Shown piece by piece: positions 26,508 through 28,341 of a DNA stretch of 64,000 bases. Position numbers and translations under genes: made by a program. Where the stretch lies: assembly GCF_000507185.2 (NCBI RefSeq), contig NZ_AYTM02000002.1, forward strand, positions 5,863,501 through 5,927,500, given 5' to 3'. How positions within the stretch are numbered: position 1 is the first letter of the stretch; every line of letters begins with the position of its first letter. This DNA comes from Pseudomonas syringae KCTC 12500 (GTDB lineage Bacteria; Pseudomonadota; Gammaproteobacteria; Pseudomonadales; Pseudomonadaceae). The notes under the pieces are model-generated. The model did no database searches and had not been told where the DNA came from. It saw only the letters and a list, made by a program, of their open reading frames with translations.

Positions 26508-26762
26508 TAGCCGTTGTTGGCTGGCGACAACGCATCCCGGACAAAACGCCAAAGCCGTTGCCTGCATTCAGGTATACAGCGTTGCAGGCAAAATAGCCCG
26601 CCCCGAATACTGCATGCCGTCGACCGTTGAGCGGTTCGCTGTCGCTAGCGAGATTCCATCTGCCTGCCTTCGCAGAAATCGATAATCCCGCTGATTGAAT
26701 TTTCCAATTGAAGGCGCCTCCTTTCCTGAAGTAAGCTTGCGCTCAATCTACGGAGACCCACC

Positions 26763-26903
26763 ATGCTGCAATCCACTTCACCGCTACTCGACGTTGCTAC
26801 CGGCATTGCTTGCCGTGCGCGCGCCGTGGCTGTGCAAGCGGCCTCGGTGAGCGCATCCGTTGATTCTTATTATGGGTATTGGTTTAGCCACTGGCGCGCC
26901 TGA
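26763..26903 (+). CDS. Aromatic leader peptide upstream of DAHP synthase
   Basis: A 46-residue ORF ending ...DSYYGYWFSHWRA, with three Tyr, two Trp and one Phe in the last eleven residues. GGAGA lies 8 bases before the ATG. A perfect 12-bp terminator hairpin follows (26953-26990) before the DAHP synthase gene, so the arrangement fits ribosome-mediated attenuation by aromatic aminoacyl-tRNA supply. It is too short to be listed by a size-limited search but the composition is distinctive. Confidence 0.8.
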   Translation: MLQSTSPLLDVATGIACRARAVAVQAASVSASVDSYYGYWFSHWRA

Positions 26904-26952
26904 TACCCATCCGGCGCCCACACTAAGGGGACGCCAACCAGAGAATTCTCTA

Positions 26953-26990
26953 ACCCCCGGTCGGCTTCCCGACCGGGGGTTTTGTTTTTT
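26953..26990 (+). terminator. Attenuator terminator of the aromatic leader
   Basis: Stem ACCCCCGGTCGG / CCGACCGGGGGT (12 bp, loop CTTC at 26965-26968) followed by a T-rich tail. It lies between the leader ORF and the second leader, within the transcript that leads to the DAHP synthase. A competing upstream pairing of GGCG/CGCC around 26916-26937 could act as pause or antiterminator stem. Confidence 0.8.
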
Positions 26991-27065
26991 CAGGACTACG
27001 TATTTCAACGGTCTGTTCAAGAACAGCCGTAAACAATCAACCTGCATCGCATCGAGGATCACGAC

Positions 27066-27218
27066 ATGAACTACGCCACTTATTACCGCAACGACATCGA
27101 TTTTGCCTGGCGATTTAGCCACCTCCGTTCGGGACAGCCTGCCGCCTCCGTTCGGTCTCTGCCAGGTGGCAAGCACATACCCCCGGTTCTAGAAGCCCTT
27201 TGTCGAACACCCCAGTAG
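27066..27218 (+). CDS. Possible second aromatic leader peptide / upstream ORF
   Basis: A 50-residue ORF starting MNYATYYRNDIDFAWRFSH, again rich in Tyr, Phe and Trp in its first 18 residues. GAGG lies 8 bases upstream. It shares the in-phase 9-mer TTTAGCCAC (Phe-Ser-His) with the first leader. There is no strong terminator after it, only stems GCCACCT/AGGTGGC and GCGGGA/TCCCGC (27225-27239). It may be a second regulatory uORF, or a chance frame. Confidence 0.5.
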   Translation: MNYATYYRNDIDFAWRFSHLRSGQPAASVRSLPGGKHIPPVLEALCRTPQ

Positions 27219-27258
27219 GTCTGCGCGGGAGCGTCCCGCCAGCCCAGGAAGCCAGAAC

Positions 27259-28341
27259 ATGAACTCGTCCGTTGCCGTAACCCCGTCCGACCTGTCCAGC
27301 CACGCCGTCAATCTGGCGGACAACAGCCCCGCCTCGAAACGCCTGCCAGGTACTCTGGAATTGAAGATGCGTCTGCCCCTCGGCGCAGCGCTCACCGAAC
27401 AGGTTGCCGCCCATCGCCGCGCCGTACGCGCCATCCTTGAAGGCCAAGACTCGCGACTGCTGGTCATCGTAGGCCCCTGCTCGATCCACGACCCTCGATC
27501 CGCCCTTGAATACGCTGAGCGACTGGCCGACCTTGCCGCGCAAGTCAGTGATCAGATGCTGCTGGTAATGCGCGCTTACGTCGAAAAACCGCGCACGACT
27601 GTGGGCTGGAAAGGCCTGGCTTACGATCCGCGCCTTGACGGCAGTGACGACATGGCCGAGGGCCTGACGCTGTCGCGGCAATTGATGCTGGAGATGCTGG
27701 GGCTGGGCCTGCCGATCGCCACCGAGATACTGCAACCCATGGCGGCGGGCTACTTCGACGATCTGCTCAGTTGGGTCGCGATTGGCGCTCGGACCACCGA
27801 ATCGCAGATCCATAGGGAAATGGCCAGCGGCCTGCCCATGGCTGTCGGGTTCAAGAACGGTACTGACGGCGGCGTGACGGTGGCCAGCGACGCGATGCGT
27901 TCGGCCGCGCATCCGCATCGCCACTTTGGTATGGACCGTCATGGCCACCCGGCGATTATCGAGACACAAGGCAATCCGGATACGCACATCGTGCTGCGCG
28001 GCGGTCACGGCGGCCCCAATTACGATCACCAAAGTGTGGCCAACGTGCAGGCGAGCCTGAGCAAGAATAATGTCGCGTCGCGAATCATGGTCGATTGCAG
28101 CCACGCCAACAGTGGCAAGGACCCGCTGCGTCAGCCTGGTGTGTTCGAGGACGTTCTGGAACAGCGCTTGTCAGGCAACACCTCGCTCATCGGCATGATG
28201 ATCGAAAGCCACCTGTTCGACGGCTGCCAGGCATTGGGCGGAACGCTGCAGTACGGCGTTTCGGTCACCGATGGCTGCCTTGGCTGGGAAGGTACCGAAC
28301 GCCTGCTGCGTCGTGCGGTTGACCGTCTGCGTTACAGATAA
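27259..28341 (+). CDS. 3-deoxy-7-phosphoheptulonate (DAHP) synthase
   Basis: A 360-residue class I DAHP synthase of the AroF/AroG/AroH type, condensing phosphoenolpyruvate and erythrose-4-phosphate at the entry to the shikimate pathway. Hallmarks are VGPCSIHDPRSALEYAERL near residue 72, KPRTTVGWKGLAYDP near 110 and GGHGGPNYD near 250. Cytoplasmic and usually feedback-inhibited by an aromatic amino acid. ATG 27259 has AGGAAG upstream. The upstream leader region suggests it is also attenuated. Which aromatic acid it responds to cannot be read from the sequence. Confidence 0.95.
   Translation: MNSSVAVTPSDLSSHAVNLADNSPASKRLPGTLELKMRLPLGAALTEQVAAHRRAVRAILEGQDSRLLVIVGPCSIHDPRSALEYAERLADLAAQVSDQMLLVMRAYVEKPRTTVGWKGLAYDPRLDGSDDMAEGLTLSRQLMLEMLGLGLPIATEILQPMAAGYFDDLLSWVAIGARTTESQIHREMASGLPMAVGFKNGTDGGVTVASDAMRSAAHPHRHFGMDRHGHPAIIETQGNPDTHIVLRGGHGGPNYDHQSVANVQASLSKNNVASRIMVDCSHANSGKDPLRQPGVFEDVLEQRLSGNTSLIGMMIESHLFDGCQALGGTLQYGVSVTDGCLGWEGTERLLRRAVDRLRYR

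Follow-up and report, generated by a model that had tools for sequence, protein, structure and literature searches.

Ribosome-dependent attenuators that respond to amino acids are represented by those of the trp, his, phe and leu type, in which a Shine–Dalgarno (SD) sequence, sensor codons, alternative stems and a terminator are combined ahead of a biosynthetic gene. In the leader of rtpA, a gene for a regulator in Gram-positive bacteria, the layer that acts on translation is a Trp leader peptide. This layer is described as standing in tandem with one that acts on transcription, both sensing uncharged tRNA (work cited in PMC11255114). Tandem attenuators are also described for the mgtCBR leader of Salmonella, namely mgtM and mgtP (PMC3641672), and two leader peptides each are reported for the resistance genes ermB (ermBL and ermBL2) and msrD (mefAL and msrDL) (PMC8274638, PMC10314930). 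For aroF, a Shewanella study lists a Tyr-tRNA-sensing attenuator, citing work in E. coli (PMC2659441). A literature search that covered few subscription papers returned no leader of a Pseudomonas DAHP synthase gene, no P15 attenuator and no tandem leaders of an aromatic gene. A sequence-only reading of the locus treated below had held its arrangement to be undescribed; stacked leaders as such have precedents in mgtCBR, ermBL/ermBL2 and rtpA, and what stands of that claim is the lack of tandem aromatic-gene leaders in the literature found.

The locus lies in a window of 64,000 nucleotides from Pseudomonas syringae KCTC 12500, the whole stretch of DNA that was analyzed (coordinates are window positions on the + strand unless stated otherwise). 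As the sequence-only reading had proposed, two short ORFs with aromatic codons, leader peptide 1 of 46 aa (26763..26903) and leader peptide 2 of 50 aa (27066..27218), precede in tandem a DAHP synthase gene, which encodes an aroF-type enzyme of 360 aa (27259..28341; TIGR00034 aroFGH, 441.7 bits against a cut-off of 173.2). The gene 3′ of aroF is PpiC-like, its best NCBIfam match being PpiC at 100 bits, below the cut-off of 127. Leader 1 has all the components of the trp/his/phe/leu type listed above. The locus resembles mgtCBR in that a single leader mRNA contains two short ORFs, and one of the mgtCBR ORFs senses charged tRNA through Pro codons; however, both mgtCBR ORFs act on transcription, their signals are ATP and proline, and the gene controlled is not biosynthetic, whereas leader 2 of aroF is not followed by a terminator and both aroF leaders carry aromatic codons. 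In rtpA, as in the control proposed here, one gene answers to two sensors responding to a signal of one kind, the earlier acting on transcription and the later, a leader peptide, on translation; but the transcriptional layer of rtpA is a T-box rather than a leader peptide, and neither the regulator gene nor the Gram-positive host has its like here. The ermB and msrD genes likewise have two leader peptides for one gene, which, unlike those of aroF, sense macrolides and not tRNA charging. What is new against the systems found in the literature is that the entry enzyme of a pathway has a pair of leader peptides whose codons specify the same amino acids, one acting at transcription and the other probably at translation.

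Leader 1 is preceded by an SD sequence, GGAG (26752..26755), and ends, as had been read from the sequence, in YYGYWFSHWRA. The ORF is present in 79/79 named loci having upstream sequence; 80 were fetched, one of which (L079) lacks it. The sensor codons GGG TAT TGG TTT AGC occupy 26874..26888, and the Tyr-Trp-Phe run (YWF) is kept in 79/80 sequences, window included, the exception being L077, with the longer GYWFS in 66/80. Given that leader 1 alone has codons for Tyr, Trp and Phe, the earlier suggestion that two leaders serve the sensing of more than one aromatic acid is not needed. The 9-mer TTTAGCCAC that had been noted in both leaders is indeed in phase in both ORFs, at 26883 and 27114; these are its two + strand copies in the window, a third copy lies on the − strand (51268), and of the 9-mer itself only the core TTTA is conserved. 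TGG-TTTA is common to the two leaders. The GGGTAT of leader 1 is able to pair with ATACCC just 3′ of the leader 1 codons, and the two are paired in the consensus structure of the Rfam family P15. Leader 1 is followed by an intrinsic terminator (26952..26981) with 10 GC pairs, a 4-nt loop and a T tract at 26982..26990 (ΔG −27.4 kcal/mol); its stem is perfect, as had been stated, and measures 13 bp instead of the 12 bp given. The terminator scores below −15 kcal/mol in 78/78 scored loci, L077 and L081 having been left out because they did not fit the script pattern, although the hairpin is visible in both. A search for sigma-70 promoters between 26000 and 28600 found none.

Three segments between the sensor codons and the terminator, together with the terminator 5′ arm, provide alternative stems. 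Segment 1 is the end of leader 1 (26892..26903) and pairs with segment 2 (ATCCGGCGCCCA, 26908..26920), and the duplex coevolves, with a native energy of −19.47 against −17.54 for swapped partners and 0/5000 permutations as low; 60 distinct pairs from the 80 loci entered this comparison, the rest being duplicates or outside the script's patterns. The pairing is kept by changes that alter the leader 1 peptide (WRA, GLA, GVP), and therefore it is the RNA, not the peptide, that is conserved at the end of leader 1. Segment 3 (GCCAACC, 26933..26939) is a candidate antiterminator arm whose partner in the window is GGTCGGC in the terminator 5′ arm; in folding with the 1:2 stem formed and the terminator 3′ arm not yet made, its GCC-ACC can form pairs with the GGT-GGC in that 5′ arm. 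This 3:4 pairing coevolves weakly (native −9.21 versus −8.95 swapped; 123/5000). In equilibrium folding of the full leader, the terminator has an average probability of about 0.95 at any ribosome position, and antitermination must therefore be kinetic. Of the alternative stems, for which the sequence-only reading had proposed RNA folding as a check, 1:2 is thus borne out by coevolution, whereas 3:4 is weak and the terminator is favored at equilibrium.

With an SD sequence and a short ORF, codons for the end products, a terminator and mutually exclusive stems (of which 3:4 is weak), the features read from the sequence strongly support leader 1 as a ribosome-dependent transcription attenuator. 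When aromatic tRNAs are charged, the ribosome would reach the stop of leader 1 and the terminator would form. When the ribosome stalls at Gly-Tyr-Trp-Phe, the end of leader 1 would pair with the sequence 3′ of its stop, and the segment freed by 1:2 pairing could pair with the terminator 5′ arm.

The end of leader 1 and its terminator are already catalogued, as P15 in Rfam (RF00627). The covariance model matches 26861..26979, which is the attenuator itself, at 137.5 bits against a gathering cut-off of 70, and the P15 consensus structure includes the terminator in its formed state. Although the RNA is the same, RF00627 is filed as an sRNA gene, and its description has no leader ORF, no aromatic codons and no attenuation. 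P15 appears in PMC2375449 as one of the sRNAs that Livny et al. detected; its synteny with a TPP riboswitch has been noted and a riboswitch suggested (PMC2527527), and it was raised in an hfq mutant of P. fluorescens in a study of 2017 that called its function unknown (PMC5627042). On the attenuator reading, P15 would be the short terminated transcript that arises from attenuation at leader 1. A second match, below threshold, lies on the − strand (26954–27073, 29.6 bits) and rests mostly on the palindromic terminator. Among 119 sampled Pseudomonas genomes, 109, the window's own included, have P15 above the cut-off, and in 109/109 the adjacent DNA encodes aroF. The ten genomes without P15 (G014, G027, G041, G042, G060, G069, G082, G093, G108 and G117) are also without the window-type aroF, their sole match at 1e-60 being a paralogue 53–55% identical.

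Leader 2 (27066..27218) begins MNYATYYRNDIDFAWRFSH and has its own SD, GAGGA (27054..27058), with an SD motif in 76/76 sequences that have leader 2. It stands before aroF in 75/79 named loci with upstream sequence and in 109/109 sampled Pseudomonas genomes having P15 and window-type aroF, all with an SD (103/103 by script where leader 1 was recognized, and the other six read by eye). At least one in-frame ATG with an SD motif precedes the Trp-Arg-Phe block of leader 2 in 76/76 sequences, window included, whereas by chance such a motif accompanies 140 of the window's 1980 ATG triplets (7%). From the ATG to the TGG of the block, the mean number of aromatic codons is 4.22, compared with 0.86 after shuffling of the bases, and the count exceeds the shuffled mean in 103/103 loci; the Tyr codons before Trp number 2–5 in the genus set and from 1 (L078) to 5 in the named set. 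Across 63 distinct ungapped sequences, the share of synonymous changes among single-base codon differences is 0.49 in frame versus 0.30 and 0.34 off frame for codons 2–14, and 0.40 versus 0.22 and 0.33 for codons 19–50. The sequence-only reading would have been undone by a leader 2 that is not conserved; instead, both ORFs are conserved (79/79 and 75/79), and leader 2 shows the synonymous bias in frame that had been proposed as a check. These statistics strongly support leader 2 as an ORF that is translated.

Within leader 2, the block TGGCGATTTAGC (Trp-Arg-Phe-Ser, 27108..27119) is a candidate anti-RBS. Its first ten bases, TGGCGATTTA (27108–27117, Trp-Arg-Phe), are identical in 75/76 named sequences, L067 having TGGCGCTTTA, and they recur in all 103 genus loci, as found by a pattern permitting other bases at two places. 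In 34 ORFs of the window, 8% of Arg codons are CGA and 32% of Phe codons are TTT; because TGGCGATTTA is kept despite the rare CGA and the less used TTT, the constraint falls on nucleotides and not on amino acids alone. Pairing with the aroF start accounts for this invariance in some groups only, and in most clades it does not. Beyond the Tyr-rich start and WRF, the leader 2 peptide is not conserved and its C-terminal end differs between clades, which argues against a function of the peptide itself. In L174, the C-terminal half of leader 2 is in another frame and runs to 83 aa, with the Tyr-rich start and WRF intact.

Two further pairs of arms lie 3′ of the block. The S1 arms (27126–27132 and 27148–27154) can form 5/7 pairs in the window, and the S2 arms, GCCGCC (27141–27146) and GGTGGC (27165–27170), are interleaved with S1 and have a pair probability of 0.70; the spacing of the two pairs is constant across the groups from fluorescens to Halomonas-type, and a pseudoknot inside leader 2 is possible. 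By pattern, the arms are absent from 15/15 aeruginosa/stutzeri sequences. They are mostly invariant, so that covariation cannot decide: it did not exceed controls except for double-sided changes (2 versus 1.0 expected, 13/500 shuffles). The idea that the block and the interleaved S1/S2 serve frameshifting or recoding was dropped, since the leader 2 stop is not at a constant distance from the aroF start, so that the frame differs from locus to locus, and since S1/S2 covariation was above controls in that one measure only.

The junction between leader 2 and aroF differs from what follows leader 1. The stretch between leader 2 and aroF is free of intrinsic terminators in the window and in all 71 loci scanned; the scan gave four hits, each of them the terminator of leader 1, included because the script had started from an in-frame ATG farther upstream. 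The second ORF thus lacks the terminator that would mark tandem transcription attenuators of the mgtCBR type. The earlier proposal of tandem control holds in that two leader ORFs are conserved, but leader 2 does not repeat the device of leader 1. An aroF start was assigned for 71/76 sequences (all but L042, L054, L062, L063 and L069), and in all 71 loci the untranslated gap is at most 50 nt. In the window, the space between the stop of leader 2 and the aroF SD, AGGAAG (27246..27251), is occupied by a bridge hairpin, H (27219..27245), with pair probabilities of 0.98–1.0, except 0.75 for the innermost A-U. Among 55 distinct spacers of at least 20 nt, mostly from Pseudomonadaceae, 54 form a single hairpin with at most 3 free nt on each side, toward the stop and toward the SD, where 15.1 would be expected from shuffles (the exception is L078). 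The energy of H has a mean z of −3.05, and its arms coevolve (native −19.49 versus −15.96 arm-swapped; 0/5000). Of the 11 Halomonas-type loci with an assigned start, 8 have the stop of leader 2 at −4 to +7 nt relative to the start of aroF, the other distances being +28 (L072), +39 (L060) and +44 (L078). The placing of the leader 2 stop against the aroF start, whether via H or by abutment, speaks for control of translation. Sequestration of the SD by local hairpins was rejected, given that the mean SD opening barely shifts, from 0.46 free to 0.34 with a ribosome at the stop.

The block could act on translation by pairing with the aroF start. In the window, a helix CUGGC:GCCAG is predicted between 27107–27111 and 27251–27255 with a probability of about 0.62. 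When the block was paired with the aroF RBS and with shuffled RBSs in 71 sequences, z ranged from −1.8 to −4.9 in 14/14 aeruginosa/stutzeri sequences and from −2.4 to −4.1 in 3/8 of the putida type, the other 5/8 lying between +0.65 and −1.0; z was −0.33 in the window and −0.21 in L003 of the same clade, and the means by pattern group were −1.67 (n = 27) and −0.67 (n = 44). In a swap test on 65 distinct block/RBS pairs, in which each native pair was compared with its own block and the RBSs of other clades, native pairing was the stronger in aeruginosa/stutzeri (−18.36 versus −10.41), putida (−15.74 versus −11.59), L071 (−15.10 versus −12.27) and, by little, the Halopseudomonas type (−12.56 versus −11.95). 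It was no better than swaps in the fluorescens (−10.85 versus −11.75), Halomonas-type (−11.38 versus −12.84) and Denitrificimonas-type (−5.10 versus −12.46) groups, in the window with L003 (−11.35 versus −11.83) and in L078 (−4.50 versus −14.80). The permutation value across all sequences was 0.0017, and the clade-balanced native advantage was −0.56 with an sd of 0.68.

A control in which the block was set against 58 RBSs belonging to the other genes of these loci (small numbers) was overall small and mixed: 1/9 genes reached the native mean or lower in aeruginosa/stutzeri, 1/3 in putida and 52% of 23 in fluorescens. A ribosome placed over the block was predicted to raise the opening of the RBS from 0.44 to 0.58 in aeruginosa/stutzeri and from 0.49 to 0.64 in putida, and the predicted change was slight for the window clade (0.57 to 0.63), the fluorescens group (0.56 to 0.58), the Halopseudomonas type (0.55 to 0.56) and the Halomonas type (0.49 to 0.52). 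Pairing of the block with the RBS as a general rule was therefore rejected, as shuffles and swaps hold in one group and part of another. On these models, anti-RBS masking by the leader 2 block appears to be supported in aeruginosa/stutzeri and part of the putida type, possible in the window and unsupported in the remaining clades.

Outside Pseudomonas, the two leaders are distributed unequally. The four named loci without leader 2 (L059, L064, L065 and L070) are those of Salinicola, where it was found in 0/4. In family f36, most likely the Halomonadaceae judging from the named loci, a search around G247 matched 47 genomes, of which the loci of 32 were examined, and leader 1 was present in 32/32 and leader 2 in 25/32, 24 of these 25 with an SD by script. 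In family f43, 30/31 were examined; the script recognized leader 1 in 30 (doubtful in L279) and leader 2 in six, of which the calls in L267 and L269 are spurious (no block, no SD), so that 4/30 remain. Leader 1 occurs in more loci than leader 2 and is therefore the more widespread element. We infer that leader 2 was either gained early and then lost, or gained more than once. On the full two-layer reading set out below, both layers would be common to Pseudomonadaceae and Halomonas-type bacteria, and hence probably as old as their split. Four loci (L125, L126, L127 and L129) have a single, different candidate leader with FFWWFGYGFYFSQ before a DAHP synthase gene (WWFGYGFYFSQ in L129), a candidate for an independent or diverged aromatic leader. 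No leader was seen before the window genome's own paralogue (L113).

Our main reading, to which we give a probability of about 0.57, is that control of aroF has two layers, leader 1 attenuating transcription and leader 2 governing aroF translation. On transcripts that extend past the terminator, the translation of aroF would be governed by leader 2, which carries the Tyr codons and the Trp-Arg-Phe block, and hairpin H, or direct abutment in most Halomonas-type loci, would keep the leader 2 stop near the aroF start or SD. The likeliest mechanism would have the block RNA pair with the region of the aroF start as long as the block is free of ribosomes, and a ribosome stalled on the Tyr, Trp or Phe codons of leader 2 would cover the block and leave the aroF start open. 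Leader 2 would then be a translation-level sensor, whose action we infer and whose switching step is predicted. The full form of this reading, in which aroF is guarded twice by ribosomes on aromatic codons, the Trp-Arg-Phe block being both sensor and antisense to the aroF start and H holding the stop there, is tentative and falls somewhat short of an even chance. The main rival to masking is coupling through hairpin H, which could equally lower aroF translation on stalling. Leader 2 would in that case be a translational coupler, with H hampering direct initiation at aroF and the ribosomes that finish leader 2 translating it; aroF translation would need enough charged aromatic tRNA, with a sign opposite to that of leader 1. 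The close fit of H to stop and SD in 54/55 spacers, the closeness of the leader 2 stop to the aroF ATG (−4 to +7 nt) in 8/11 Halomonas-type loci and block-RBS pairing not above controls in several clades are all consistent with a coupler, but its regulatory sign would be odd for a biosynthetic gene and the pairing in aeruginosa/stutzeri points to masking, and we regard it as unlikely, though with a real chance of being right.

It is less probable that leader 2 acts on transcription, through Rho-dependent termination or pausing in the leader 2–aroF region. The tandem attenuators of mgtCBR are both described as transcriptional (PMC3641672), and the stretch 3′ of the block in the window (27120–27218) has 38% C and 24% G; yet no intrinsic terminator follows leader 2 in the window and 71/71 loci, where the untranslated gap is also short (at most 50 nt). 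P15 might instead be a trans-acting small RNA, as its entry in Rfam as an sRNA gene, its place among the sRNAs of Livny et al. (PMC2375449) and its rise in the hfq mutant (PMC5627042) would fit, or the leader 2 peptide might work by itself. We consider both very improbable, given that P15 lies beside aroF in 109 genomes, the 10 genomes without P15 have only the 53–55% paralogue and the coevolving helix is the attenuator's helix, while peptide 2 is unconserved beyond its Tyr-rich start and WRF and ends in another frame in L174. A decaying, functionless duplicate of leader 1 is suggested by TGG..TTTA in both leaders and by the likeness of their Halomonas-type forms (YWF and YWRF), but the SD and start of leader 2 are kept in 109/109 Pseudomonas loci and most loci of the second family, and its coding signal and the coevolving hairpin H leave this explanation almost no likelihood.

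The attenuator reading of leader 1 gives P15 a candidate function and explains its co-occurrence with the window-type aroF in the sampled Pseudomonas genomes. If the second layer of the two-layer reading is true, the locus would match the rtpA arrangement with leader peptides in both layers, and would be well suited to asking why a cell senses one shortage twice. The findings point to control at the entry of the shikimate pathway in Pseudomonas, a group that is engineered for aromatic products, and free expression of aroF in engineered strains might require the removal of both leaders.
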